From: a virus
Length of the DNA stretch: 35,819 nucleotides
Direction: 5' to 3' (one strand)
Virus record (IMG/VR): IMGVR_UViG_3300042504_001043
Location: 1 to 35,819 of that record
Part shown: one piece after another, positions 2,543-21,135 of the stretch
How the letters are laid out: each line of letters starts with the position of its first letter
How positions within the stretch are numbered: position 1 is the first letter of the stretch
The notes under the pieces: model-generated
Told to the model about the DNA's origin: nothing
The model's input: only the letters and a program-made list of their open reading frames with translations
Database searches by the model: none
Position numbers and translations under genes: made by a program

Positions 2543-5500
2543 CTATTCCTCGACACTCACAATGGACACCCTCTGGCTGTTGTTGCCAGAGCTGAACTGA
2601 ATCGACCGCGCCGTGATTGCGGCGCGATAGGTGCGATCCGAAAGGCTCGCGTCGTTGTCGGTGTAACTCGCCGAGCCGCTCATGTTTTGAGTCCAGATTC
2701 GCGCGTAGAGATTGCCCGGATACGGCTCGCTGTCGGTCTCATAAGACCAGCTCCCTGTGACGTTTAGGGTTGCAACCTCGGTCTCTGCTCCGCTGCCGAT
2801 CTTTCGGTAGAGCTTGACCGTGGCCGAGATTGAGCCGCTGTCAGTACCCGTCGATGAGCCCTGCATTTGCGTCCAGTTCCCGCTGTACGCATAGCTGACC
2901 GTGACGACTTTCGGGTCGCCGTTGGTGCCGAACGGACCGACGGTGATCTGTGCAGTCGCCGAGAGGTCGCTTGTCTCGCCGCGGTTTGTAAGAGTGCCCG
3001 CCGAAAGCGTTCCGCCGAAATACGCGGAGCCGTTGGTCTTGAGGTAGTAGGTCGCGTTCGCTTCGGTGCAGCTCGAGAGGCTTGCGAAGTACGGCCCGTA
3101 CCATTCGATAAACTGCGAAGAGCTTCCAAACGGCGCGCCGGTGACCTTCATGTAGGAGCCGGTCGTCGTAATCGTGCGGCCGTTGGTGACGTCGACGCGG
3201 AAGCTGTCCGCGGAGTTGCGGATCGTTCCTGCGGTAAGCGTTCCGATGTTTGCCGTGATGCTCGAGAGGTCGGTGACCGAGATCTTTGCGGCCGTTATTG
3301 AGCCCGCGGAAATCTTGTCGGCGGTGACAGCATTTGCAGCGATGTTCGTCGCCGTGATTGCGTTTGCAGCGATCTTGTCGCCGGTAATTGTCGACGCGGT
3401 GATTTTTTCCGCGGTCACCGCTCCGGCGGCGAGCTTCGCCGTCTCGACCGCTCCAGCGGAAATCTTCGCGGCCGTGACAGCGTTGGCCGCAATCGTGTCG
3501 GCTGTGACCGCCCCGGCTGCGATCTTTGCGGTCTCAATCGCTCCGGCGGAGATCTTTACCGCTGTGATCGCGTTCGCGCCGATCTCGTTCGCGGTTACTG
3601 CTCCGGCGGCGATTTTTGCTGTCTCTATAGCACCGGCTGAAATCTTTCCCGCGGTGATCGCATTGGCGGCGATCTCGTTCGCGGTGACCGCGCCTGCTGC
3701 GAGCTTTGCAGTCGTGACCGCACCCGCCGAGATTTCCGAAGCCGTAACGGCGCCCGCTGCGATGTTCGCTGCGGTGATCGTATCGGCTGCGATCTCGTTG
3801 GCGGTAATTGCACCCGCGGCAATTTTTGCGGTGCTTATTGCGCCGTCTGTGATCTGCGTTCCGACGATCTGCCCGGTGAGCTTTGCCGCTGTGATGGATT
3901 CGATCTGCGAGTTTGTAAGCTGGCCGGTGATTTTCGTCGACGCGATCGCTTCGAGCTGTGCGTTTGTAAGCTGGCCGGTGATCTTTGTAGCTGCAATATC
4001 TTGGAGCTGCGCGTTCGTAAGCTGCCCGGATACCTTCGCCGCCGCGACCGCTTGAATCTGTGCGTCGGAGAGCTGCCCGGTAATTTTCGAGGCGGCGAGC
4101 GCGGAGACTTGCGCGTCCTGAAGCTGCCCGGAAATATCGACCGCTGGGACCGCAGTCGTCCAGCCGGAGGCGGTGTAGCGGTACAGCTTCGAGTCCGTCG
4201 TCAGGAATGCCATCCGGCCGACGAAGAGGTTCGTCGATGGAAGCGAGCTGACGATCTCGTAGCCGATTTTGTTCTTTGAGACAGCGAAGGTCGCGGTGTA
4301 GGTGACGCCGTTATAGACCGCCGACAGAGTCAGAGTCCCGACATCGACCGAGAGCGCCGTGATGCGATAGTAGCCCTTCGGCTGACCGCTGACCGGCGAG
4401 TTCGTTGCAGTATTGATCGAGCCGGTGACACCGGAGCCCGCGGTCGCCGAAAGCGTCGCCGAGGCTGTGACATCGGTCGCTCCCTGGTAAACCTTCAGCG
4501 TACCGTCAGCGCCCGAGAAGTCTGGAACGGTGCCGTCCGCGTAGGCGTTGAGCTGGAAGGAGCTCTTCGAGAGCTGAATGTTGACGGCATCGACACCGTT
4601 CGTCCCGTTGGTGCCGTTGGTGCCGTTGATCCCGTTGGTGCCGTTGTTGCCCTGCCGCGCCTTTGTGACGGAGAACACCTTGTCGATCGAGTAGCTCCCG
4701 GCGTAAGTCGCGCGGAAGGCGACCGAGCCGGTGTCGGCGGACATCGCGCTCACCGAGTACGCGCCGGTCGAGGCGTTGATCGAGGCGGTGACGTTGGTCT
4801 GTCCCAGGATCGAGAACGTGCAGACGTTGGTGACGTCCGTCGTGCCGACAAAAACCTTAAAGTCGCCGACCGCAGTCGCGAAGGAGCTGACAGTCCCGGC
4901 GGAGTCTGCCGGTACGGTGACCGCTTCGTTCGTAAGGTAGCCGACCAGGGTCGGCGGTTTCGCGGCGATTGTCACCGAGCTCGAGGTCGTGTTCGGATAC
5001 CAGTCAGAGCGAACGCGAGCGCGGCGAGTCCTGATCCAGTAGTAGCGCGCGGAGGTGTCGTTCGTAACGTGCTGAAAGTCGGACGCGCGACCGTCGAAGA
5101 TCTTCGTCGCGGTTCCGCGATCGTTCGCGATTGAGGCGTAGAGCTCGACCGAGTCATAGGAGGCGGGATCGTTCGGGAGCGTCCAGGCGATGAGCGCGAA
5201 GCCGTCCTGGGCGCTTGCGGTGAGCGAGCTGATCGCAGGAGGCTTGCTGTCCTGGTCTGCCGTTGCGGTCTCCGGCGCCGGGACGAATTGGATGCGAAGG
5301 CACGAGCCCGCGAGAGATCGCTCGGAGATAACGGCAGGGTCCGCGTAGCCCGCCCACGGGTCGTAGTTGTCGTCGTATCTTTTGAGCCCCTCGTTATCGA
5401 GGAACGTCAGGAAGCCGAGATAGGGCTGCGCGATCGGGACCGCGCCGGTATTTGCGACGAATCGGTTCGTTAGATCCGGCGCAGAAACGGCCGAGCCATC

Positions 5501-7807
5501 GAGGAGCAGGAGCATCGAACCCGGACCGCCCGCGCCACCGGCGCCGGGATAGTATTTGTTCGGGTTAGCGTTGTGCATCGGCGGCATGACCGACGAGTTG
5601 CCGGACAAGTTAATCGTCGCCGACGCGCCGGTAGAGAATCCGCGCGAGACTGTGCAAAGGCCAGCGCCTCCTGCTGCGCCGGTTCCACCGGCTGCGCGAA
5701 AGTCGACCCTGTTGCCGCTGACAATGCTCCCGCCAGGACCGCCGCCTGTACCGCGCAGATCAGTCGGGATTCCGGTCAGAGCGTTTCCCGAGACTTGGAG
5801 CTGGAGGTACGGGAAGCTCGCGTGTTTCCCCTGCGTGACGGGAACCGGGAGCGTGAGGAGCTTCGGGTTGCCTGACTTGTAGGCCGCGTGTGCGTCGATG
5901 CCATCCCAGCCGCGCGAGTTGCCGACGTATCCAGGATTCCCAAGCGTTGAGGTCTGCGGGTTGGTGTCGTCCGCGACGCCTGGCAATCCGCCGCCGGTGC
6001 CGTTGATGGTTCCGTTGATCGTCAGGTAGCCTTTCACGCGGAGCTGCACGTTGCCGCTGATATTGATTGTGCAACCCTGCGGGATCGTGAGGTCGCCGTT
6101 GTGGTACCAGATCGAGGCCGCGGCAGTCATGTCCGCGCCGCCTGCGAGCGAATAAGTTCCGACAGCCATCACGCCTGCGGTGATCGTGGCAACACTCGAG
6201 AGCGGCGTCCCGGTTGCCGTGTAGAACGCATCAGGGAGCGCGGTCGTCGCCGTCGTCGGTGAGAGCGCGGAGGCCGGAGAGGTCGAGCCGAAGAGCTCGA
6301 GCTGCACCTGGCCGGTGCGATGGTTGACGGAGATATTCTGGATCTCGAACGCGCGGTCGATGCTCGAGCCGGTCCCGGAGAAGTCGCGGACGCTCGCGTA
6401 CTTCACGCGGACGACGTCACCGACCTCGAGCTTGTTCAGCGAATGGACGACCGTGACGGACATCCGCTCCGGCGGTGAGGCGTAGCGATCACGCAGAGAA
6501 TCGACAAGCTGAAAGAGCAGCGAGTCGGTCGCCCGTCCGCCGTAAAGTCCCTTGAACTTGAGATCGAGAGGGTCCGCACGGCCGTGAATAGAAACGGACG
6601 TCCCGTCGATCAGCGAGGTCGTGCGGGAGTAGTCGGAGCCGGTCCAGTTCCAGGAGATGCGGAAGACATTGTGGACGTCTTCCATGTCGTGCGTGAGCTC
6701 GCCGACCTGAATCGAGTTCGACTCGTCGAGGGTTGCGACGGTTCCCGCGTCCGATAGAACGCGCGCCGCTCGCTTGAGACCGAGAGCGCCGTCTGCGTAA
6801 ACCGGCATGAACATCCCGAGCAGTCGACAGATCTCCTCCTCGAGGAACTTCTTGCCGTCGGTTTTTTTTAGCCCCTCAAATCGAATGATGACGCCACCGT
6901 TTGCGCCGTCCCATACATCCGCGCCGATGCCGGTGAAGTCGGCGAGACGGATCAAAGACGAACTGATCCCGAGGTGCCAGGTCGACGGGAGGGTGACGTT
7001 GTCACCGTAGAGGGTGCCGGTGAGGATGGCGTAGGCGAGCTTGACGGCCGGGAGCTCGAGGTAGACGTACTCCGTCACCTTCTCGCGACGCGCGGCGGGT
7101 GTTGCAGCGTCGACGTCGTACTTGCTCGCGATCGTTCCCAGGACGCCACGAGTGCATCCGGTAAAGGTTGTCGCAGTCTTGCCGGTGTAGCGGATGACCT
7201 CGTCGCGGATCTTGATGTAGCCGACGGTCGAGTTTGCTGCGTCCGAGTAGCTCGAGCCGTGATACACAGTCGAGAAGCCGCTCGTCGAGCTGACGTAGAC
7301 GGTCGTGTCCGTCGCGCTTAAAGACTGCGCGAGGGTTGTCTCGGCAAGCGAAAAGATATCCTTCTTCGCGGAGCGCTGAACGTCCGCGCAGGAGATCGAG
7401 TAGCGCCCGCGGTCGTAGGCCGCCTGGGTGACCTGTTGCGTTCCGACCATGACGAAGTCGTTGAACGAGAGCCCGGCGTAGCCCAGGTAGAAGCGCACCT
7501 GGCGCTGACGGAGACCGACGTCATCGTTGAGTCGTTCGCGGATCTCTGTTGTGAACTCCGCGCCGACGTCGACGACGGAGAACGACGCGGAGCCGATCTC
7601 GCTGCGGCCCTCGATCGGGTTCAATCGCTGCGAGACGATGGACGGTTCCTGGAGCGCGCCTTGCAGGACGGTTCCAGGCACGTCGGCGATACCGCTGTGC
7701 GAGGTGATGTAGATCGAATCGACGGGGTACTCGATCTTGACTACGAACCGCGGCTCTTTAACCGAGGACGTATTGAGTACGTTGAAGACTTCGCCGTCGG
7801 TACGCAT
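2543..7807 (-). CDS. Tail tip / host-specificity protein fused to long repeat fibre
   Basis: A 1754-residue virion protein. Residues 1 to about 540 look like the phage central tail hub region (λ gpJ-like role), including a β-rich segment and a charged K-K-F-L-E-E-E-I stretch typical of tip proteins. Residues about 560-800 are Gly/Thr/Asn-rich; about 845-950 resemble a fibronectin type III domain; near 1050-1070 there is a short collagen-like G-x-N/G-T-N run. Next come five 17-residue repeats (consensus GQLTNAQLEAIAxTKIT, about 1226-1315) and about eighteen 10-residue repeats (AGAITAxKIA, about 1319-1505), then a β-rich C-terminal domain that probably touches the receptor. It overlaps the upstream tail gene by 1 nt (TGATG-type junction). 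Confidence 0.82.
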   Translation of the reverse strand: MRTDGEVFNVLNTSSVKEPRFVVKIEYPVDSIYITSHSGIADVPGTVLQGALQEPSIVSQRLNPIEGRSEIGSASFSVVDVGAEFTTEIRERLNDDVGLRQRQVRFYLGYAGLSFNDFVMVGTQQVTQAAYDRGRYSISCADVQRSAKKDIFSLAETTLAQSLSATDTTVYVSSTSGFSTVYHGSSYSDAANSTVGYIKIRDEVIRYTGKTATTFTGCTRGVLGTIASKYDVDAATPAARREKVTEYVYLELPAVKLAYAILTGTLYGDNVTLPSTWHLGISSSLIRLADFTGIGADVWDGANGGVIIRFEGLKKTDGKKFLEEEICRLLGMFMPVYADGALGLKRAARVLSDAGTVATLDESNSIQVGELTHDMEDVHNVFRISWNWTGSDYSRTTSLIDGTSVSIHGRADPLDLKFKGLYGGRATDSLLFQLVDSLRDRYASPPERMSVTVVHSLNKLEVGDVVRVKYASVRDFSGTGSSIDRAFEIQNISVNHRTGQVQLELFGSTSPASALSPTTATTALPDAFYTATGTPLSSVATITAGVMAVGTYSLAGGADMTAAASIWYHNGDLTIPQGCTINISGNVQLRVKGYLTINGTINGTGGGLPGVADDTNPQTSTLGNPGYVGNSRGWDGIDAHAAYKSGNPKLLTLPVPVTQGKHASFPYLQLQVSGNALTGIPTDLRGTGGGPGGSIVSGNRVDFRAAGGTGAAGGAGLCTVSRGFSTGASATINLSGNSSVMPPMHNANPNKYYPGAGGAGGPGSMLLLLDGSAVSAPDLTNRFVANTGAVPIAQPYLGFLTFLDNEGLKRYDDNYDPWAGYADPAVISERSLAGSCLRIQFVPAPETATADQDSKPPAISSLTASAQDGFALIAWTLPNDPASYDSVELYASIANDRGTATKIFDGRASDFQHVTNDTSARYYWIRTRRARVRSDWYPNTTSSSVTIAAKPPTLVGYLTNEAVTVPADSAGTVSSFATAVGDFKVFVGTTDVTNVCTFSILGQTNVTASINASTGAYSVSAMSADTGSVAFRATYAGSYSIDKVFSVTKARQGNNGTNGINGTNGTNGTNGVDAVNIQLSKSSFQLNAYADGTVPDFSGADGTLKVYQGATDVTASATLSATAGSGVTGSINTATNSPVSGQPKGYYRITALSVDVGTLTLSAVYNGVTYTATFAVSKNKIGYEIVSSLPSTNLFVGRMAFLTTDSKLYRYTASGWTTAVPAVDISGQLQDAQVSALAASKITGQLSDAQIQAVAAAKVSGQLTNAQLQDIAATKITGQLTNAQLEAIASTKITGQLTNSQIESITAAKLTGQIVGTQITDGAISTAKIAAGAITANEIAADTITAANIAAGAVTASEISAGAVTTAKLAAGAVTANEIAANAITAGKISAGAIETAKIAAGAVTANEIGANAITAVKISAGAIETAKIAAGAVTADTIAANAVTAAKISAGAVETAKLAAGAVTAEKITASTITGDKIAANAITATNIAANAVTADKISAGSITAAKISVTDLSSITANIGTLTAGTIRNSADSFRVDVTNGRTITTTGSYMKVTGAPFGSSSQFIEWYGPYFASLSSCTEANATYYLKTNGSAYFGGTLSAGTLTNRGETSDLSATAQITVGPFGTNGDPKVVTVSYAYSGNWTQMQGSSTGTDSGSISATVKLYRKIGSGAETEVATLNVTGSWSYETDSEPYPGNLYARIWTQNMSGSASYTDNDASLSDRTYRAAITARSIQFSSGNNSQRVSIVSVEE

Positions 7808-11544: not shown

Positions 11545-12062
11545 GGATCGACGAGCCCCTCTGTTTCGGCTGCGCGAGCGCGCAGTCTCTTCTCGATGCG
11601 GGTGATGCCCTGGCGCAAGATGCGCTGAAACTCTGGAAGGATGCCGCTGCGCGTTGCGTCCCAAGCAGGACCGAACCACGGTCTCGCGTTCACGCGACGT
11701 CCGCTCGGACCGCGGACGCGGTGACCAAACTCGACGAGGTGACCGTAGAAGATCCCCTTCCGCTTGCGGTTGTAGTAGACGTTTTGCAGCGCGACAGCGC
11801 GGCGGTCCTTCTTCTTCGGACCGACCTGGACGGCGACGGTCTCGCTGCCCTTCGGTCGCACCGTGACAATTCGCACCGACTCGGCGAGCGCTCCAGATCG
11901 CGAGAAGCTCTCCGCGTTCGCGGTCGCCTGGCGCTCGAGCTTGATCAGCGAGCGTCGCGTTGCTCGAGTGAGGAGTCGCTTTGCGGCCAGAGCATCGAGC
12001 TCAAGCAGTCGCGCCTCGAGCTCCTTCAGTCCCTCGACTTTGATGTCGGTGACGATCGGCAC
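11541..12062 (-). CDS. HK97 gp10-like neck / tail completion protein
   Basis: The start is set at GTG 12062, which shares a base with the stop of the head closure gene (TAGTG); an upstream start in the same frame would overlap that gene. The 173-residue product opens with an I-x-V-x-G-L-K-E-L-E-A-R-L helix, the usual start of the HK97 gp10 family, and later has the R-P-W-F-G-P-A-W-D segment that such proteins carry near the C-terminus. This family links the connector and tail. Its neighbours on both sides fit the same role. Confidence 0.8.
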   Translation of the reverse strand: MPIVTDIKVEGLKELEARLLELDALAAKRLLTRATRRSLIKLERQATANAESFSRSGALAESVRIVTVRPKGSETVAVQVGPKKKDRRAVALQNVYYNRKRKGIFYGHLVEFGHRVRGPSGRRVNARPWFGPAWDATRSGILPEFQRILRQGITRIEKRLRARAAETEGLVDP

Positions 12063-12388
12063 TAGACGAACCTCTCGACGCAAAGGAGCTGGAGCTCGCG
12101 GTTGCGCTCGTCGCGGTTGATCACCGACTGGATGTCGAAGTAACGCGAGCCGAACTTGACGCGATCCTTCGGCGTGAGCGTCACGCCCGAGATCGGACGG
12201 ATGACGATCCGCGTTGAGACCTCGCTCTGCATCTGCGCCGCGGCGAAATACTCGCGGCCGTTGAGCGGTTCGACGGACGCCCAGACCGTACCGAGCGACG
12301 CCCAGGTCGGCGTCTGGTCTCCGTACTGGTCGATCGCGTCGGTCGCCCGTTGGACGGTGACACGATGTCGAAGACGCCCGGCCTGCAC
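12062..12388 (-). CDS. Head closure / head-tail adaptor protein (SPP1 gp16-like)
   Basis: A 108-residue β-barrel-type protein beginning M-Q-A-G-R-L-R-H-R-V-T-V-Q-R, the typical start of phage head-tail joining proteins. It continues with W-A-S-V-E-P-L-N-G-R-E, I-V-I-R and a C-terminal R-Y-F-D-I-Q-S-V-I-N-R-D-E-R, all characteristic of the family. It would close the head after DNA packaging and form part of the neck. The start overlaps the end of the connector gene by one base. Confidence 0.88.
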   Translation of the reverse strand: MQAGRLRHRVTVQRATDAIDQYGDQTPTWASLGTVWASVEPLNGREYFAAAQMQSEVSTRIVIRPISGVTLTPKDRVKFGSRYFDIQSVINRDERNRELQLLCVERFV

Positions 12389-12963
12389 TAGAACACCTTG
12401 AAGGGTGACAGAAGCGCGGTGAACCCGAGCGGAAACTCGGTGACGATCGTGCCGGTGAGCGTCGCTTCGCGGTTCTCGTAGAGGTGCGCGATCATCAGCT
12501 TGATCGCCGCCTTGATCGCTGGCGGCACATCTGTCGGCGCACCGTAGCCTGCGACGTAGCGGATGCGGACGTCGTTGATGTGACCTCGAGAGCTCGGCCA
12601 GGTCTGGTTATAGGCCTGGAAGATCTTCCCAGGTTGCGCGAACGGGCCTGCGTCGTTGACGACCTGGTAGGTGTTCGCTGCGAGCGTCTGGGTGTTGCCC
12701 TGGACGTCGATGTAGATGATCGAGGTCACGCTTACGAGCGGCGCCTTCGGGATCTGAAAATAGAGCGGGAACTGGTCGACCTGGAGTTCCCAGGTCGTAT
12801 TCACTAACGAGCGCCCGGTGTAGGCCTCGGCGTATTCGCGCGCGGCCTTCGTTAGTGCGAAGAGAATCTCGTCGTCCTGGTTGCCGTCGATGCGGCAATG
12901 TGCGCGCGCCTCTTCGACCGTTACCGGCTCACCCGTCGGAGCCGTGATCAGGGTGTGGTTCAT
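12388..12963 (-). CDS. Head-tail connector protein (gp6-like)
   Basis: A 191-residue, mostly helical protein of the phage gp6/φE125 gp8-like connector type. Visible family features are the T-V-E-E-A-R-A-H-C-R-I-D segment with D-D-E-I-L, the helix A-A-R-E-Y-A-E-A-Y-T-G-R, a W-E-L-x-x-D-x-F-P strand and the C-terminal I-K-A-A-I-K-L-M-I-A-H-L-Y-E-N-R-E helix. It would form the ring under the portal. It overlaps the gp77-like gene upstream by 4 nt (ATGA). Confidence 0.87.
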   Translation of the reverse strand: MNHTLITAPTGEPVTVEEARAHCRIDGNQDDEILFALTKAAREYAEAYTGRSLVNTTWELQVDQFPLYFQIPKAPLVSVTSIIYIDVQGNTQTLAANTYQVVNDAGPFAQPGKIFQAYNQTWPSSRGHINDVRIRYVAGYGAPTDVPPAIKAAIKLMIAHLYENREATLTGTIVTEFPLGFTALLSPFKVF

Positions 12964-13235
12964 AGTTGTCGCACCTGTACCAAGACCGAGCGGTCTTCAA
13001 TGCGTCCGCCTGGAGTCGTCACGCGGTTCGTGATGAGGTAGTCCGCTCCGGCGACTCCGCCAGAGAGGAAGGCGCGCGTCACGTTCGCCGTCACTCCCTC
13101 GGAGACGATCGTCAGCGCTGCGGGAACTTCCCAGGCGGAGGTCGTGACCGCGTCCCCGTTTAGCCAGGGATTCCAGTCGACCTCGAAGTCAATCGTCGAG
13201 TTCGGATCTTTCGTGAATGCCGCGATGATCGTCAT
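12960..13235 (-). CDS. Small virion protein, Gp77-like β-domain
   Basis: A 91-residue protein with the pattern K-D-P-N-S-x-x-D-F-x-V-D-W-x-x-W-L-N-G-D, then T-S-A-W-x-V, F-L-S-G-G-x-x-G-x-x-Y and V-T-T-x-x-G-R-x-x-D-R. This Ig-like β pattern recurs in many phages next to connector genes (Gp77-type domain), often as a small decoration or fibre-base protein. Its exact place in the virion is unknown. ATGA overlaps join it to genes on both sides, including the long repeat protein upstream. Confidence 0.7.
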   Translation of the reverse strand: MTIIAAFTKDPNSTIDFEVDWNPWLNGDAVTTSAWEVPAALTIVSEGVTANVTRAFLSGGVAGADYLITNRVTTPGGRIEDRSVLVQVRQL

Positions 13236-14773
13236 GCAGCGATTCTCCTGTTGTTTCGTGAGACCTTGATCGTGCGGCCTTCCGCCTCGACCTCGATCGA
13301 ACTGTCAGCGCCGACCTTGAGCATCGAGCGCTGCGGAATAATTTCGCGGCGATCCTGGAACGGAACCTTCAGCTCGCGCGAGTCCGGCGTGAAGGTGCGA
13401 TTCCGTATCCGTCCGCTGACGGTCGCATCGCCCTCCGCATCGCCGTCGACGGAGCCGCGCCCGACTGCCTGACCTTCGAGCTCGGCCGTGCCGTAGACCA
13501 GGCCCAGGATTGGACCGCGTCCGTAGAGCGTGACGATCGAGCTCGCCTCGCCCGCCGCGTCGCCGACCTGGCGACCGTAGGCCAGGATCGAGGCGCTTGC
13601 GCTCGAGGTGCCGCTGTCGCTGCCGTCGATCAGCGCCTTCGCGCCGATCAATGCCGAATCGACGACCGCCTCACCCGCCGATGCACCGTCAAGCGTTGTC
13701 CGCCCGAGGACACCCGCCTCGATTGAGGCGGTGCTCTCGATCGAGCCTGCGGCGCTTGCGTAGGCCTGGACGTCTGCGCTGACCGTTGCCGAGGTGTTGA
13801 TCGAGCCATCCGCCGGAGCGAATGCCAGGATGACCGCGCTCGTGCTCGAGCTGCCAATCGCCGCGCCCGGTGCGTAGATCTTCCGCTGCCCGGAGCCCTC
13901 GACCGTTGCCAGGCCTTCGGCGGCGCCCGCGCCCTGGGCGGTTGCCAGGATGTCGCCGGACACCGAGCTCGAGGAGCTCGAGGCACCCTCCACCGTCGCG
14001 GTCGCGTAGATGCTCGCTGTCGCTGACGCAGAGCCCGCAGAGGCCGCGTCTGCCAGGCCGTAGGCCAGCACATCGCCCGCGATCGTGCTCGCGCCCTGCG
14101 CCGTCCCGTTAGCCGGGAAGATGCCCTGGATCGCGCCGTCGGCCGTCGAGCTGCCGGACGTTTCGCCGCGGCTCGAGAACCTCGCGGTCCCCGAGGCGGT
14201 TGCGGTTGCCGAACCTTCAGCCTGGCCGGATGCCTGGCCGGTTGCGAACGCATCGCCCGAGACCGACGAGGTGCCCGAGCTCGAGGCGTCGAGCCCGGCG
14301 CGCGCCTGGACGTCGGCCGCGACCGTTGCCGTTCCCGCCGCAGCGCCCTCGCCCTCGAGGCGACCGGAGCCGTCGGCTGTTGCCGTAGAGCTCGAGCTCG
14401 AGGAGGCCGAGATCGGCCCCGACGCGATGACCGCGCCCGCGACCGTTGCAGATCCCGAGGAGCTGCCGCTCCCCGAACCTTCTGCGATAGCAGATCCAGA
14501 AGTTGCGCCGGTTCCAGAGGCGGAGCCGGTCGCCCTGGCGAATGCTCGAGAGGTTGCCGACGTTGTCGACGAACCCGCGGAGCTTGCGATCGGACGACCG
14601 ATCGCGTCGATGTCACCCTGGACGGTTGCCGTTCCGACACTCGCGCCAGGCGAGTAAATCTTCGGACGAAGCGTGCCGGTGACAGTCGCCGACCCTGCGG
14701 CCATGCCGTACAGCGTATCGCCGACGGCATAGCCGAAGAGCCAGTAGTCGCTCTGGACGTATAGGCCGCTCAT
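13232..14773 (-). CDS. Gly/Ala/Ser 20-residue repeat protein with decoration-like C-terminus
   Basis: A 513-residue protein whose start has GGAGG 5 nt upstream. Residues about 23-458 form some 22 imperfect repeats of about 20 residues (approximate consensus x-D-G-x-A-x-G-x-A-T-V-x-A-D-V-x-A-x-G), almost all small or β-forming residues and with hardly any aromatics. This looks like a β-solenoid or extended fibre. The last 55 residues start R-T-F-T-P-D-S-R-E-L-K-V-P and repeat short R-x-I/L-x-V-P-like strands, resembling small phage decoration or head-fibre anchor proteins. It lies between the Gp77-like gene and small virion genes, so a capsid or neck appendage is inferred. No known full-length family is recognised. 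Confidence 0.75.
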   Translation of the reverse strand: MSGLYVQSDYWLFGYAVGDTLYGMAAGSATVTGTLRPKIYSPGASVGTATVQGDIDAIGRPIASSAGSSTTSATSRAFARATGSASGTGATSGSAIAEGSGSGSSSGSATVAGAVIASGPISASSSSSSTATADGSGRLEGEGAAAGTATVAADVQARAGLDASSSGTSSVSGDAFATGQASGQAEGSATATASGTARFSSRGETSGSSTADGAIQGIFPANGTAQGASTIAGDVLAYGLADAASAGSASATASIYATATVEGASSSSSSVSGDILATAQGAGAAEGLATVEGSGQRKIYAPGAAIGSSSTSAVILAFAPADGSINTSATVSADVQAYASAAGSIESTASIEAGVLGRTTLDGASAGEAVVDSALIGAKALIDGSDSGTSSASASILAYGRQVGDAAGEASSIVTLYGRGPILGLVYGTAELEGQAVGRGSVDGDAEGDATVSGRIRNRTFTPDSRELKVPFQDRREIIPQRSMLKVGADSSIEVEAEGRTIKVSRNNRRIAA

Positions 14774-14816
14774 CTAACCTCCGAGCCGGTCTCGAAGTCG
14801 GACGCGGCCTGTTTCA

Positions 14817-14984
14817 TCAAGGAGCCGGATCAGCTCCTTCTGCCTTCGGTGCGAGCTGCGGTTGCGCCTGGCGTTGCAGCTTGTCGATGAGTCCGGCGAC
14901 GACCTCGAAGGGTTGCTTCGCGAGCGATGCCAGGACGACGTTCGCCTCTTCGGCGGTGAGTTCAAACTTCAAGACGTTGTTCAC
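14817..14984 (-). CDS. Small phage protein (55 residues), unknown
   Basis: The start is placed at GTG 14984 because GGAG lies 5 nt upstream; the frame continues upstream without another convincing start. The product reads V-N-N-V-L-K-F-E-L-T-A-E-E-A-N-V-V-L-A and then K-Q-P-F-E-V-V-A-G-L-I-D-K-L-Q-R-Q, a two-helix pattern seen in very small proteins of many phages, followed by a Pro/Ala-rich tail. The function is unknown. It lies between two virion protein genes and may be a scaffold-like or chaperone-like factor, but this is not supported by a motif. Confidence 0.7.
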   Translation of the reverse strand: MNNVLKFELTAEEANVVLASLAKQPFEVVAGLIDKLQRQAQPQLAPKAEGADPAP

Positions 14985-15015
14985 AAGATCTCCGAGTTGT
15001 GGCTTATCAAAAAAA

Positions 15016-15579
15016 TCACGGCGCGCTGTCGACCTCGAACTCGATCGTCGCGGTATCGAGTACAGAGCCGCTCGATGCAAGTCGAATCTCTATTGCTAAC
15101 GATCGGACGACGAAGTTGTTCGTCACGGTCAATGTCCAATCGCGAGTCGTCGAGAGGTTGATCCAAGATCCAGTCGTTCCGCCGACCGATCCGCCCGAAC
15201 CCGACCACGTTGCATAAACCTCAAACAGCGACGCCGACCCCGAGACGAGCCACTCTCCGTTAATTGAAACGAGAGTCCCGTTTATGTTGGTGCGATACGC
15301 GCCGCCGTTACTGTTCAGACGATAAGTCGCTGTCGCCGTTCCACCGCTTCCAGCCGCAGACAGGTTTTGCGCGCTCTGGTTTGAGATCGCGACGCTGGCG
15401 TTCGACTTCCCGTAAAAGCTCGAGAGCGAGATCGCGCCGCTTGCGACTCCGGCCAGCGTTCGCAGCGCCGACTCGTTAAGACTCGAGGTCGCCGTCGCGG
15501 ATCGTCCGAGCTCGAGGTTGATTGAGCGATCGGTCGTCGATCCGCCGATCGAGATCTCGCCGGAAGAGACGAGAGGCAT
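15016..15579 (-). CDS. Phage structural protein with Ser/Gly-rich N-domain
   Basis: A 187-residue protein opening M-P-L-V-S-S-G-E-I-S-I-G-G-S and continuing with S-I-N-L-E-L-G and A-I-S-L-S-S-F-Y-G-K-S. This N-terminal block of about 60 residues recurs at the start of many phage fibre-like or tail-associated proteins. The rest is Ser/Thr/Gly-rich β-strand sequence. Its start overlaps the stop of the upstream gene (TAATG). It is probably a virion appendage protein working with the large fibre and repeat proteins nearby. Confidence 0.65.
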   Translation of the reverse strand: MPLVSSGEISIGGSTTDRSINLELGRSATATSSLNESALRTLAGVASGAISLSSFYGKSNASVAISNQSAQNLSAAGSGGTATATYRLNSNGGAYRTNINGTLVSINGEWLVSGSASLFEVYATWSGSGGSVGGTTGSWINLSTTRDWTLTVTNNFVVRSLAIEIRLASSGSVLDTATIEFEVDSAP

Positions 15580-15941
15580 TAGGCCGCGACGTCAGCCGGT
15601 GCTGCGGGAGCTTCGGGAGCCGGAGCCCAGGGGAGAGGCTTCTGCTCGAGCGCGGCCTTCTCGACTTCCTTCGCGACGACGTAGGCGATGTGCGCCTGGT
15701 ACGGTGCGAGCTGATCTTCCTGCGACCACACCCAGGCCTCGACCTCTGCGGGAGTGAGCTGCGAGAAGTCGACGAAATTCTCGGGAGCCGGATCGCCGAC
15801 GTTGACCGAGAACGGAAGCTCGAAGCTGCACCCGCTGTCGGTGCCCTTGAGCGTGACGTCGACCTCCTTCACTACGTTTTGCAATTCGCCGACGTTGTGA
15901 ACTCGGACTGCGTTAATCTTCAGCGTGTATTCGATAGCCAT
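15579..15941 (-). CDS. DUF7936-like small virion-associated protein
   Basis: A 120-residue protein with a β-rich first half (M-A-I-E-Y-T-L-K-I, then V-V-K-E-V-D-V-T-L-K-G-T-D). A F-V-D-F-S-Q-L-T-P-A-E-V-E-A-W-V-W segment follows, and the tail is Ala/Pro-rich. This arrangement matches a family of small phage proteins often found next to fibres, here assigned tentatively as DUF7936-like. AGGAG 9 nt before the ATG overlaps the stop of the fibre gene, so the two are coupled. The role is unknown; fibre attachment or fibre folding is possible. Confidence 0.6.
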   Translation of the reverse strand: MAIEYTLKINAVRVHNVGELQNVVKEVDVTLKGTDSGCSFELPFSVNVGDPAPENFVDFSQLTPAEVEAWVWSQEDQLAPYQAHIAYVVAKEVEKAALEQKPLPWAPAPEAPAAPADVAA

Positions 15942-15953
15942 GACAAATATCTC

Positions 15954-18900
15954 CTAGTGAATCCGAGCCTGGAGCTCGGCGACTTTGTTCTCGAGTGCGA
16001 CGACCTTCTTCGCGAGCTCAATCGCCGACACCATCGCGGCGTTGCCGTAAGCGACCGAGAGGTCGCCGTTCTCTGCCTCGATGACAGACTCGGGTAAGAC
16101 CTCGCGGAGCGACTGCGCCGAGACGCCCGCCTGGGTGATCTCGACGTCGGTGCGGTCATAGATGCCGCTCTTCACGTTCGCGAGATTGACGAGAAAGCCG
16201 TCGTCTAGCTTTCGCCAGTTGGCCTTTACTCGTTCGTCCGAGTAAGCGGTGACGTTGCCCGCGGCGATTGCGTTGCCTGCACCGTTTACTCGGAAAGCGA
16301 CCGAGTTGCCGTTCGTGTTGAGGACGCGGAAGCCGCGAGTGTCGTCGCCCGTCCCGTAAAACTGAACCTGCATCCAATACTGCGAGCCGCCGTCGTATGA
16401 ACAGCCATACGCCCAGTTAGAGTCCGAGGCAAAGCGAATAAATGACGGCGTGTTGTATGCAGGCCCGCTTATGTTGCCGGTCATATTCCCGCCAGAGAGC
16501 GGGAGCGCGTAGGAGCTGTAGTTCCCGGCGTGAAGGACAACATGATTTGATGTTGTTGCGTAGATGTTTGCGCTTTGAAGATAGGTAGCGCTGTAGCCCT
16601 CGCCTATCTGTAGCTGTGTTCCGTTTGCGTTGCCTTCCATTGCGCGGTAGCTGCCGCCAAAATAAATGCGGTTGTTGCCGCCAGTAAAATATAGCCCGAT
16701 GCCGTTTCCAGAAAGTGTCGCGCTCCCCGTAAGCGTTCCACCGCTCAACGGAAGCGCGTAGCTGCTGTAGTTGCTGCTGTGCAAGACGTCGACGTAGCTA
16801 GAGTAGGCAGAGCCCGAGCCGAAGCTCTGCTGCCAAATACGCATACCAATAGCGTCTTTGCGGAACGTGACAAGATTATCGGCGCCGCCAGATCCGTCCG
16901 TGTATGACCGAAGATGAAGGTAGTCCGCCCAAGGTGCTGTGTTATTGTTTGCCCACGACGTAAAGCCGAATACTGCTCGTCCCGCCGCATCGGAGTTCGG
17001 AGCCTTTATCCGGTGGTCATAAGTCCTTAACCGATCTGCATCTGTAGCAAGCGAGGCGCTTCCTGCGCTGCCGGTTATATTGATTGCCCACGTCCCTGAT
17101 GCTCCGCTGCCTGTCAAGGATGGCGAGTAGCTGTTGTAGTTGCCGCTATGCAGGAATGAGTTATATGCGCCGCCGTTGTAGAAAACCGGGTTGTGTTCGT
17201 ACACCCAAGCCCAGCTTCCGCTGCCGTTATGCAAAAAGATTTTGCTTGAAACCCCAGCATCGCTTCTAGTAAGTCCGAAGCCCCACGGGCTGCTGCTGCT
17301 CGTCGTGAGGTTAAGCGGCTGCGAGCCGCCGCCGTTTATGCTTACAGTTCCGGTGATTGTCCCGCCGCTTAATGGGAGCGCATAGCTGCTGTAGTTTGCG
17401 GCGTGGAGAACTTGATTTCCGCTTTGCTGAAGCGCGACAAGTGAGTTTACGGCGCTGCCGTTGAGCGTCATCCACGGGTTTTCGTACCCCGTCCCGATCC
17501 ATGCCCACGTCAGGCTATCAGCGCTACCTAAAGCGCCGAATCCAGCGCGAGTGGTACCAGCGCTCCCTTTGTAATACGTCCCCATTGACCAGCCGCCAGC
17601 GTTGGCAGTCATCGCAATGAAGCCGCCACCAGTATCGATTTGAATCGGGCGGCTTCCGGTAATCGTCCCACCGCCAATAGGCAGCGCGTAGGAACCGACG
17701 TTACCGGCGTGAAGAATCTGATTGCCCGATGCAGTTACGGTGCCGTTATTGTTGACGACGAAGTTGCTGCCGAGAAGCTGGAGATACTTTCCAGTCCCGC
17801 CACCGTTGTAGACGCCGTACAGGAAGTTGGTGCCGTTGCCGTCGTACAGACGGAATTGGTCGCCTTCGCTCTTTAGCGTGTAAGACCAGTTCGTTGAACT
17901 GCCGATGGAGATTAAACGGTCGGTTCCCTGCGTGAGCGTAATGTTGCCGGTGATGCTGCCGCCGGTTAATGGCAGGGCGTAGCTGCTAAAGTTCCCGGCA
18001 TGGAGAAGCTGACTTCCGCTGATCTGCACCGCCGTCGTCGACGCAAAGTTGACCGTGCTGTCGGCGGTGAAGTCCGAGATGTTTGTCGCGCTAGGCGATG
18101 CGTTGATGAACGTTGTGCCGATAGCAGGCGGGTTGCTTGCCGTGATGTCTCGGTTTGTGGTGACGCGAACGTCGCAGTAGGCGTAGTACTTTACGTCGAC
18201 GAAAACAGGGAGATAGTAGTTGTCTCCGCTGACCAAAACCGGCGCTCCCACGCGGCATTGGAAATTGTTGTCGCCGTTGCCGCTGTACTCGACAAGCTGT
18301 ATGCCGTAGGTGTTGGTGTAGCCCCAGTGAATGACGTACCTCTTCTTTAGACCGCGAGAGTAGTAGCCCTCATATAGCTCGACCTCAAACGGGCCGCTGC
18401 CGCCATTCCAGTCGTTGTAGTCGATGCCAAGACGCGCAATCTCAAACGTCCTTGCCTGCGTACCAGAAGCGGCGAGGTCGTTCCAAAAGAACTGCTTGAT
18501 CGTGCTGACCGGACCAGAGAACGCGGTGCTGTTGTAGCCGTCGAGTAGGTCGGCATCCGCTGCCTTGGCTCCCGATGCAAGCGCACCGATTTCCGCAAGC
18601 GACCACGAGACGTTTGCGCTGCCGTCGACCGACTTGCCGGTGCTGCCAATCGTCAGCGTTCGCGCTGTGCCCCAGTTCGCGGTCGTGATGTTCGCGCTAC
18701 CGTTGAACGATGTGCCGTTGATCGTGCGAGCCGTTGTCAGCGTAGCTGCGCTGCCAGTTGTGTTTTGATTAAGCGTAGGAACATCGCCAGCCGCTAACGT
18801 CGTCGCAGAAGTTACGCGACCCTTTGCGTCGACCGTGACCTTTGTATAGGTGCCAGCCGTCACGCCAGAGTTTGCAAGCGTGGCGGTACCCGTTACGTTT

Positions 18901-20090
18901 GCCGAGCCATTGAATGAGCCGCTCGTCCATGTGACGTCGCCGGTCATCCCAATGGTGCGCCCGGTGGTCAGCGTCGCGGCGCTGCCGGTGGTGTTTTGGT
19001 TGAAGGTCGGCCATGTCTGCCCGGCAGCGAATGTGATCGCTCCGGTCATTGTTCCGCCCGCGAGCGGCAGTTTTGTCGAGTCGGCGACAGTAATGTCTGC
19101 TGTGCCGTTGAAGCTCACGCCGTTGATCGCGCGAGCTGTTTGTAACGCGGTTGCGGTTGCCGCATTACCTGTCGTTGATGCGGACGACCCGGTAATAGAA
19201 ATTCCCCAAGTCCCCGATGCCCCGGTACCAGTTAGCGTTGGCGAATAGCTGTTGTAATTACCGCTATGAAGGAGAACTCGCCACGAGTCCCAGACGTTAT
19301 TTTCTTCCGTGCGAAACCACAGCGTGTTTAGGCGACCGCCTATTTGGACCCCGTATCCCGCAGTTGAGTGCGGAAGGTATATGCCGGAGGTTGTGGTGGT
19401 GCCGTTGTGGTTGTTAGTGCCACCGGAAATGAGAGACGCTTGACCGTTGGTCTTGACGTTCCAGTCGCCAGTAACTGTCGCGCGATTGAGCGGCGTAAAC
19501 CCGAGCGCGGTCGTGACGTTGCCCGAGGTAATCTCACCGCGAATGGTCGCGGAGCTTTTGTTCTCGACGTTGGCAAGGCCGACGTCGCTAGAGGTGAGCG
19601 TGACGGCGCCGGTCCGCCCGGCGACAGAAGTCACCGCGTCGGAGAACGAAAAGACACCAGTTGTCGAGTTATAGGACAGCGAGCCCGACGCGGATACTGA
19701 TGCGCGAGCTCGAGCCTGGGTGAAGTAGAGATTTGTCGATCCTTCAGCGAGCGAGTCGGTCGAACCAGGCGAGGCGCTGATCTCGATGTAGGTCGAGCCA
19801 GTCCATCGGTAGGTTTTATTCGTGTCGATCGTGACGTAGATCTTGCCCGTCTCGCCCGTACCAGGGAGCGACGCAAAGTTCGCGACCTCGACAACATCGT
19901 CCACATAGGACGGAAGCTGCGCGGACGGAACCTTCCCGGCGGCATCGAGGGAGGCGTAGCCATTGGCGACGCCCTTGTTCGATGCGACCTCCTTCTGCCC
20001 GAGCTCGGTATTGAGGCCGGTGAAGTTGGCGTCGACTTCCTGGTGAGTAAGGGCGGCGCCCTTACCCGCGCGAGTGACGATCGTTGCCAC
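15954..20090 (-). CDS. Long tail/side fibre protein with C-terminal S74 chaperone domain
   Basis: A 1378-residue fibre. The N-terminus (M-A-T-I-V-T-R-A-G-K-G-A-A-L-T) and the following A-G-R-T-G-A-V-T-L segment are typical fibre attachment features. The long shaft carries many copies of a S-G-N-Y-x-S-Y-A-L-P-L-S-G-G-T-x-T-G motif. The last about 100 residues form a Peptidase_S74 domain with the S-D-E-R-V-K start, which is an intramolecular chaperone that cuts itself off after trimer folding. The shaft DNA is visibly richer in A/T and lacks the CTCGAG word that is dense elsewhere, so the shaft was probably exchanged. It lies among head genes rather than in the tail module. Confidence 0.88.
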   Translation of the reverse strand: MATIVTRAGKGAALTHQEVDANFTGLNTELGQKEVASNKGVANGYASLDAAGKVPSAQLPSYVDDVVEVANFASLPGTGETGKIYVTIDTNKTYRWTGSTYIEISASPGSTDSLAEGSTNLYFTQARARASVSASGSLSYNSTTGVFSFSDAVTSVAGRTGAVTLTSSDVGLANVENKSSATIRGEITSGNVTTALGFTPLNRATVTGDWNVKTNGQASLISGGTNNHNGTTTTSGIYLPHSTAGYGVQIGGRLNTLWFRTEENNVWDSWRVLLHSGNYNSYSPTLTGTGASGTWGISITGSSASTTGNAATATALQTARAINGVSFNGTADITVADSTKLPLAGGTMTGAITFAAGQTWPTFNQNTTGSAATLTTGRTIGMTGDVTWTSGSFNGSANVTGTATLANSGVTAGTYTKVTVDAKGRVTSATTLAAGDVPTLNQNTTGSAATLTTARTINGTSFNGSANITTANWGTARTLTIGSTGKSVDGSANVSWSLAEIGALASGAKAADADLLDGYNSTAFSGPVSTIKQFFWNDLAASGTQARTFEIARLGIDYNDWNGGSGPFEVELYEGYYSRGLKKRYVIHWGYTNTYGIQLVEYSGNGDNNFQCRVGAPVLVSGDNYYLPVFVDVKYYAYCDVRVTTNRDITASNPPAIGTTFINASPSATNISDFTADSTVNFASTTAVQISGSQLLHAGNFSSYALPLTGGSITGNITLTQGTDRLISIGSSTNWSYTLKSEGDQFRLYDGNGTNFLYGVYNGGGTGKYLQLLGSNFVVNNNGTVTASGNQILHAGNVGSYALPIGGGTITGSRPIQIDTGGGFIAMTANAGGWSMGTYYKGSAGTTRAGFGALGSADSLTWAWIGTGYENPWMTLNGSAVNSLVALQQSGNQVLHAANYSSYALPLSGGTITGTVSINGGGSQPLNLTTSSSSPWGFGLTRSDAGVSSKIFLHNGSGSWAWVYEHNPVFYNGGAYNSFLHSGNYNSYSPSLTGSGASGTWAINITGSAGSASLATDADRLRTYDHRIKAPNSDAAGRAVFGFTSWANNNTAPWADYLHLRSYTDGSGGADNLVTFRKDAIGMRIWQQSFGSGSAYSSYVDVLHSSNYSSYALPLSGGTLTGSATLSGNGIGLYFTGGNNRIYFGGSYRAMEGNANGTQLQIGEGYSATYLQSANIYATTSNHVVLHAGNYSSYALPLSGGNMTGNISGPAYNTPSFIRFASDSNWAYGCSYDGGSQYWMQVQFYGTGDDTRGFRVLNTNGNSVAFRVNGAGNAIAAGNVTAYSDERVKANWRKLDDGFLVNLANVKSGIYDRTDVEITQAGVSAQSLREVLPESVIEAENGDLSVAYGNAAMVSAIELAKKVVALENKVAELQARIH

Positions 20091-20096
20091 GTTCGA

Positions 20097-20528
20097 TTAT
20101 TCCTCGGAGATCGTGAGGGTGCTCGAGGCAAATTCCGGGATGATCAAGTTCGACACAGCGAGCGACGCGGTGAGCGCGCCCTTGTAGAGAATCTTTCCTG
20201 CGCCGCTCGAGGCCGTACCGACCGCGAAGTGGGAGATCGTGTTCGAGCCCCCGGTGCATTGCGGGAAGGTGATCGCTGCGGCGTTCGTGACGGAGTTGTT
20301 CGTCACGGTCCAGCCGCCAGAGGTGCGCGCGACGGCGACTCGAGCGTAGCCGGTGTATGACGCCTCGCTCGTCGTCTGATTGCCCGCCTCGCCAGGATCG
20401 GCGGTGTGCAGCGAGACGAAGAGGTTCGTGTTCGGCGAGCTTGCCGCGTTGTCTGCCAGGTTGGCGATCGCCGTTCCCTGGAAAAACAGCTTCATCAGGT
20501 CATTCTCGAATGTATTGCCCTTGGACAT
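20097..20528 (-). CDS. Gp80-like small phage structural protein
   Basis: A 143-residue protein beginning M-S-K-G-N-T-F-E-N-D-L-M-K-L-F-F-Q-G, with L-F-V-S-L-H-T-A-D-P-G-E-A-G, Y-x-G-Y-A-R-V-A-V and F-A-V-G-T-A-S-S-G-A-G in order. This is the pattern of a widely spread phage domain (Gp80-like) that usually sits beside fibre genes and is thought to be a virion or fibre-associated protein. Here it directly precedes the S74 fibre gene, with 6 nt between them. Its biochemical role is not established. Confidence 0.7.
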   Translation of the reverse strand: MSKGNTFENDLMKLFFQGTAIANLADNAASSPNTNLFVSLHTADPGEAGNQTTSEASYTGYARVAVARTSGGWTVTNNSVTNAAAITFPQCTGGSNTISHFAVGTASSGAGKILYKGALTASLAVSNLIIPEFASSTLTISEE

Positions 20529-20541
20529 TTTTTCTCTCCTG

Positions 20542-21135
20542 TTAGATCACGTCTCGGAGTGCTGCCCGCGGGAAGCATTCAAGCGCCGAGTCGCGTGTTG
20601 CGTTGTAAATCTCGAACTCTGGATGACGTTGCGCCGCCTCGTTAAAGGCGGACGCGAAGACCTGATACGGCGAGCCCTTATTGAGCGCGCCGGGATGATC
20701 GCCGAACCAATGCCGCCTCGAGCCAGACATCTTCATGTCGAAGCCGAGCAGGACGATCGGCGAGCAGCTCGAGAGGGCGGCAATGTTCAATGCCTGGAAT
20801 CCCGAGTTGTCGCCGCGATGTATGCGACCAGGCTCGAGCGAGAAGCCCTGCCGGTCGATGCTCTCGATGTAATGCAGACGCCACCGTCGAGCGGCTCCGG
20901 CGTCCTGCGTTACTCGTAAACCTTTGAAGCTCGGCGCGCCCTGGTGGAGATCCCACCATTCCGGGTCCGCGGCGTAGAGCACGTCGGCCCAGGGTGCGAG
21001 CTTGTAGTTGTCGTTGACGACAATCACCGCCGCGCGATCGCGGCAGTAGTCGACGTCCTGCGCGGTAAGACTAGGCCCGCTCGCGACGACGACGCACGGT
21101 CGTCCCTTGAGTTTCGCGAAACGGTTCCGGCGCAC
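20542..21135 (-). CDS. MAF/DUF115-like protein, putative nucleotide-sugar-binding fold
   Basis: A 197-residue protein with V-V-V-A-S-G-P-S-L near the N-terminus, A-V-I-V-V-N-D-N-Y, D-V-L-Y-A-A-D-P-E-W-W and I-V-L-L-G-F-D-M-K. This order matches the DUF115/MAF-like and glycosyltransferase-42-like Rossmann proteins; phage relatives are sometimes called norphogenetic proteins. The substrate is unknown; sugar transfer to virion proteins or to host surface glycans is possible. The only usable start, GTG 21135, overlaps the preceding gene by 65 nt, which is unusually long for this genome. Confidence 0.65.
   Translation of the reverse strand: MRRNRFAKLKGRPCVVVASGPSLTAQDVDYCRDRAAVIVVNDNYKLAPWADVLYAADPEWWDLHQGAPSFKGLRVTQDAGAARRWRLHYIESIDRQGFSLEPGRIHRGDNSGFQALNIAALSSCSPIVLLGFDMKMSGSRRHWFGDHPGALNKGSPYQVFASAFNEAAQRHPEFEIYNATRDSALECFPRAALRDVI

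Follow-up and report, generated by a model that had tools for sequence, protein, structure and literature searches.

Fibre I of the Ralstonia podophage GP4 reportedly has, according to the paper on the GP4 tail, five dimers of the bead protein gp80 strung together by an elongated rope, with a 15-fold ring of Gp77 holding the fibre; it is also said to touch the edges of the tail vertex. PDB entry 8jou of this phage contains 10 chains of the bead protein and three of the Gp77 collar, and these ten bead and three collar chains agree with the fibre as reported; we take the ten-chain protein to be the fibre bead. In the Anabaena myophage A-1(L), a neck fibre of gp82-gp81-gp80 is attached to a 15-fold gp5 ring, five per virion (PMC10966104). 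Phage LSH1 carries a module of three genes, in which gp35 is a GP4-like bead, gp36 has an Ig fold, and gp34 has a depolymerase domain followed by one that eluded prediction by AlphaFold (PMC13243795).

The window, i.e., the whole stretch of viral DNA analysed here, is a 35.8-kb record with terminase, portal, protease, capsid, connector, closure, and tape-measure genes. Judging from the tape-measure gene, the phage is probably a siphophage. The following features are relevant to the 513-residue protein studied, termed the rope:

12062-12388, minus strand: head closure/head completion protein (Pfam PF05521, E=1.1e-33)
12388-12963, minus strand: gp6-like head-tail connector, directly after the Gp77 gene (Pfam PF05135, E=8e-13)
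12960-13235, minus strand: Gp77 homologue, 91 aa (PF23148, "Podophage GP4 fiber-tail adaptor", Pfam E=2.6e-25; PDB 8jou_D, E=2.5e-6)
13232-14773, minus strand: rope protein, 513 aa, with an N-terminal tip, a 22 x 20-aa repeat, and a C-terminal R-box (based on the ORF, shuffles, 22 loci, and dN/dS)
13235-13402, minus strand: C-terminal R-box, residues 458-513, tandem strands of ~9 residues, RxLxVPxxD (R-box profile, E=4.8e-17); putative collar anchor
13403-14713, minus strand: repeat body, residues 21-457, about 22 x 20 aa (alternation of small and variable residues; dN/dS 0.38; length differences among relatives in multiples of 20 aa)
14669-14773, minus strand: conserved N-terminal tip, residues 1-35 (MSGLYVQSDYWLFGYAVGDTLYG...; dN/dS 0.043; invariant SDYWLFGYAVGDT block)
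15016-15579, minus strand: 187-aa protein between the fibre and rope genes (weak PHROG matches of unknown function only, E at least 0.0046)
15579-15941, minus strand: DUF7936 protein, 120 aa, between the fibre and rope genes (Pfam PF25590, E=5.2e-11)
15954-20090, minus strand: tail fibre, 1378 aa, with a C-terminal endosialidase-type chaperone, Peptidase_S74 (PF13884, E=2.2e-6; PHROG tail-fibre matches)
20097-20528, minus strand: bead homologue, 143 aa (phrog_240, E=1.2e-17; 8jou_a, E=1.3e-7)

As for GP4 fibre I, a homologous collar and a homologous bead are encoded in one cluster, and the string-like protein of the window would fit the "elongated rope" that GP4 is said to possess. GP4 is a podophage, whereas a tape-measure gene is present in the window, whose rope has ~22 repeats, compared to ~11 in GP4-like Burkholderia phages. 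By their description, the A-1(L) fibres are likewise bead chains, with five of them on the 15-fold neck ring of each virion, but their beads link head to tail and there is no rope (PMC10966104). LSH1 shares the bead-like gp35 (PMC13243795).

The genes for rope, Gp77, and connector follow each other with overlaps, the start codon of Gp77 overlapping the stop codon of the rope, and this order is kept in the two distant relatives L022 and L023. The bead gene is located 5.3 kb from the rope gene and is not adjacent to it. Among the nine records of the window's own group, close and distant relatives included, seven encode a bead homologue, and the two without it are fragments. The S74 fibre is a possible adhesin of the rope/collar appendage cluster. 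Directly upstream of the bead gene, a 197-aa protein (20542-21135, minus strand) matches phrog_4603 (alpha-2,3-sialyltransferase, E=3e-44); by its sequence, it may be an enzyme of the glycosyltransferase kind that modifies fibres or host glycans. The 187-aa protein contains an ISLSSFYGKSN motif and a β-rich C-terminus, with no confident family match. It was considered as a bead and dropped, as it matched no bead family and a better bead was found at 20097-20528. Between it and the rope, an ORF of about 65 aa (14814-15011, minus strand; FDKPQLGDLVNNVLKFELTAEEANVVLASLAKQPFEVVAGLIDKLQRQ...) looks helical and has a weak match to phrog_3323. After the tape-measure gene, an ORF of 1754 aa (2543-7807, minus strand) without a Pfam match at E<=1 probably encodes a large tail-tip protein.

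The 20-residue repeat of the rope protein

The rope ORF starts with ATG on the minus strand. The first-pass annotation had described a 22-fold, 20-residue Gly/Ala/Ser repeat with a distinct C-terminus, and this was confirmed. Self-identity was 0.25-0.27 at lags of 20, 40, 60, 80, and 100 residues vs ~0.14-0.17 at 10, 30, 50, and 70. The observed value of 0.267 was reached by none of 2000 shuffles (maximum 0.204), and a second null, with separate shuffling of the even and the odd positions, gave a maximum of 0.220, which is still lower. About 22 units fit the body, with a single slip of one residue near residue 380, and the consensus is roughly x-D-G-A-S-S-G-S-A-T-V-S-G-D-I-L-A-R-A-x.

Residues 1-455 are composed of 21% Ala, 18% Ser, 16% Gly, and 9% Thr. 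Aromatic residues amount to ~4% and charged ones to ~12%; for the latter, the earlier description of almost no aromatic or charged residues was somewhat overstated. Within the repeat register, Gly occupies 53 even and 17 odd positions, and the odd ones lie nearly all past the slip; Thr, Asp, and Gln are mostly found at odd positions. This even/odd pattern is a β-strand-like alternation. The last ~56 residues are unlike the body and consist of tandem R-x-L-x-V-P-x-x-D strands of ~9 residues each.

Twenty-two loci related to the rope were found in IMG/VR metagenomic viruses. Most are 79-100% identical to it and open over the full length, and 19 of the 22 have kept exactly 513 aa. The distant copies in L022 (373 aa) and L023 (517 aa) show 38-42% identity overall and contain the invariant SDYWLFGYAVGDT block of the tip as well. 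The L022 rope is shorter by 140 aa, i.e., 7 x 20 or seven repeats. The dN/dS was 0.34 over the whole rope, with 0.04 for residues 1-35, 0.38 for the body, and 0.22 for the C-terminus; the neighbouring Gp77 gene (0.05) and the rope tip are under the strongest purifying selection. All parts have a ratio below 1, so that the rope is a real gene with constrained ends and repeats drifting within their pattern. In several repeat columns, Gly/Ala positions were conserved at 0.95-0.98 compared to 0.80-0.91 for their neighbours.

The whole protein gave no match in Pfam or PHROG (E<=1), in the PDB, or in isolated phages, and the C-terminus alone yielded only a chance match among phages (E=9). No relatives were found in the 84,980 bacterial and archaeal genomes scanned. 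The earlier remark that no full-length homologue is recognised holds by sequence for 50,697 isolated phage records, but not for metagenomic viruses, where homologues are present.

R-box proteins beside Gp77

With Gp77 as bait, 80 viral loci and, in addition, isolated phages were compared. The proteins next to Gp77 share a C-terminal row of tandem strands of ~9 residues, R-x-F-x-V-x-A-E-x, referred to as the R-box. Their bodies are usually unrelated in sequence, and the R-box is the only part common to all of them. Repeats of 20 residues were found, rich in Ala/Ser/Val/Thr (L085-L099, L104), Gly/Ser (L089), or Leu/Ala (L064, L075); other R-box proteins have repeats of 22 to 24 residues (L100, L110, L115, Mae-JY22) or a lectin-like domain in place of the repeat (L065-L073, L083).

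The R-box profile, which was built partly from Gp77-neighbour proteins that it then matched, hit 51 of 4548 ORFs in about 20 dissimilar clusters. Forty-three of these lie <=120 nt from Gp77, and the remaining eight are at most 1.7 kb away from it on its strand. A model made from four sequences alone found 32 ORFs, 25 adjacent to Gp77 and the other seven within 1.7 kb. A profile comparison of two rope groups aligned the C-termini alone (21% probability). PDB searches revealed neither an R-box nor a rope chain.

At the end opposite the R-box, Laminin_G_3 was detected in L083 (E=3.9e-17) and below threshold in L066, and Gly_rich_2 in L117 (E=7.8e-15). These domains are typical of distal tips, so the R-box is likely the anchor and the other end distal. 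The first-pass view of a fibre-like β-repeat protein fixed by its C-terminus near the neck thereby gains comparative support from an R-box that lies opposite lectin- and depolymerase-like domains; fixation to the capsid does not. In two loci (L091, 3017-3193; L114, 1695-1871), the R-box occurs as a free 59-aa ORF beside Gp77, a putative anchor separate from any repeat body. Gordonia phage Moosehead gp28 (L045, 5273-6778) appears permuted, with an R-box-like N-terminal segment (assigned by eye) followed by Ala/Gly repeats and, at the C-terminus, a domain known from a family of minor tail proteins.

In GP4-like Burkholderia phages, these elements occur together with a bead. The bead of BcepMigl is virtually the 8jou_a protein (E=2.5e-59), and the genes run from bead gp29 through repeat protein gp28 and pectin-lyase spike gp27 to Gp77 gp26. 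BcepIL02 and JC1 have the order bead, repeat protein, Gp77; their repeat proteins (BcepIL02 gp56, JC1 gp54) show ~20-aa repeats and an R-box-like end and lie next to the collar gene. BcepIL02 gp56 and BcepMigl gp28 belong to phrog_19041 ("virion structural protein"), to which JC1 gp54 was assigned by position and sequence. These proteins resemble the window rope in their ~20-aa repeats, their C-terminal R-box, their place next or next but one to Gp77, and the preceding bead gene, but their repeat bodies have no detectable similarity to it, and this PHROG does not match the window protein. By analogy, the gene between bead and collar in GP4-like phages is a natural candidate for the fibre-I rope of GP4. 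Virion proteomics of JC1 found bead gp53 and collar gp55, and rope gp54 is not listed (PMC9144972, Table 6); it may be missing from the virions or present in few copies. JC1 gp54 has ~11 repeats (by eye) vs 10 bead chains in 8jou; BcepMigl gp28 has only ~7.

The WGH49683-WGH49681 module of Alishewanella phage Slicko01, related to that of LSH1 (PMC13243795), was also compared to the window. WGH49683 (L136, 8570-14101), annotated as hypothetical, has 1844 aa with repeated depolymerase-like domains and ends in a period-20 region of ~750 aa; a small protein and then a phrog_240 bead follow downstream. Neither an R-box nor a Gp77 match was detectable in Slicko01. A 20-residue rope and a phrog_240 bead are all that it has in common with the window, whose protein is without the depolymerase-like domains.

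Proposed beads and shaft, and alternative readings

From sequence and gene order, we consider the rope to be, on balance, the string of a collar side fibre that is anchored at Gp77 by its R-box and probably carries beads. The R-box, a row of short R-x-V strands, would dock onto the Gp77 ring around the head-tail connector, the 20-residue β repeats would form an extended shaft, and the distal end would be the conserved N-terminal tip with its SDYWLFGYAVGDT block. The shaft would probably be dressed with the phrog_240 beads encoded at 20097-20528, as in GP4 fibre I on its Gp77 collar, and the constant period of 20 residues may be the footprint of one bead subunit. Since relatives carry distal lectin-, glycine-rich-, or depolymerase-like domains, the fibre would most likely expose a tip that binds the host surface, a role perhaps played here by the adjacent S74 fibre.

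The beads are the part of this reading on which it differs from the least unlikely of three alternatives, a bead-free collar fibre in which the repeats fold as a β-solenoid or a trimeric β-fibre, giving a stiff shaft on Gp77, with phrog_240 elsewhere in the virion. A strict β alternation over ~420 residues is consistent with such a shaft, and so are the AlphaFold models of the window rope (mean pLDDT 45.6) and the L104 rope (48.8), which are all-β with two strands per 20-residue unit, both being too uncertain for use; Foldseek of the window model vs BFVD gave no convincing match. Ropes of period 19-24 also occur where the record has no phrog_240 match. Counting against beads on the rope, no phrog_240 was found to go with the 20-aa rope of L079, and phrog_240 beads are encoded beside proteins without a clear repeat (L065-L073). 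Against a bead-free fibre, bead and collar co-occur in most lineages with a 20-aa rope, and GP4 provides a precedent with bead and collar chains in one model. Among records of 20 kb or more, phrog_240 accompanied period 20 in seven of eight cases vs three of 10 without period 20 (Fisher p=0.023), an association that is suggestive only, with lineages chosen post hoc, rough automated period calls (L074, L123, L124), and negatives that may be fragments. Co-occurrence alone is weak, since phrog_240 is a common family that carries the annotation "head protein".

An appendage of the capsid or head vertex, i.e., a decoration protein or head fibre that lies along the capsid and reaches the portal vertex at one end, is improbable. 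The filing of both phrog_19041 and phrog_240 under "head and packaging" and the contact of GP4 fibre I with the tail-vertex edges, as reported, would suit it. However, the "decoration-type" C-terminal domain proposed in the first pass found no support, since no decoration family matched in Pfam or PHROG at E<=1, and the genomic partner of R-box proteins was the collar/connector block in every lineage examined, the Gp77 collar in the window. A disordered entropic spacer, in which a silk-like and flexible linker lacks a defined fold and only sets the adhesin apart from the virion, would explain the low pLDDT throughout, the low-complexity composition, and the relaxed dN/dS of the body, but is the least probable of the three given the exact periodicity and parity, the higher conservation of Gly/Ala positions than of their neighbours, and the unchanged length in 19 relatives.

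A putative class of collar fibres

Collar and bead are already known from GP4. The R-box rope class, its ~20 unrelated bodies, and a rope of 22 repeats in a probable siphophage appear to be new in the literature searched. The sequence comparisons suggest that R-box ropes on a Gp77 ring are widespread and unrecognised as one class. More tentatively than the collar fibre of the window itself, we propose a single modular class, in which a swappable distal adhesin, a rope with a period set by the beads (19-24, mostly 20), and an R-box inserted into the Gp77 ring are combined. The sequence of the rope could diverge entirely under a constant period, R-box, and ring, and the GP4 fibre-I rope would be a member encoded between bead and collar.

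If this is true, a repeat, an R-box, and Gp77, often with phrog_240, would serve as a gene-level signature for host-contacting fibres, most of which currently carry labels such as hypothetical or minor tail protein. A candidate gene would be named for the GP4 fibre rope, and the low-confidence repetitive domain left unexplained by the LSH1 authors (PMC13243795) would be accounted for. The R-box/Gp77 pair would represent a simple docking module, and the fibre would suggest a natural system in which bead proteins may measure out a repeat string.
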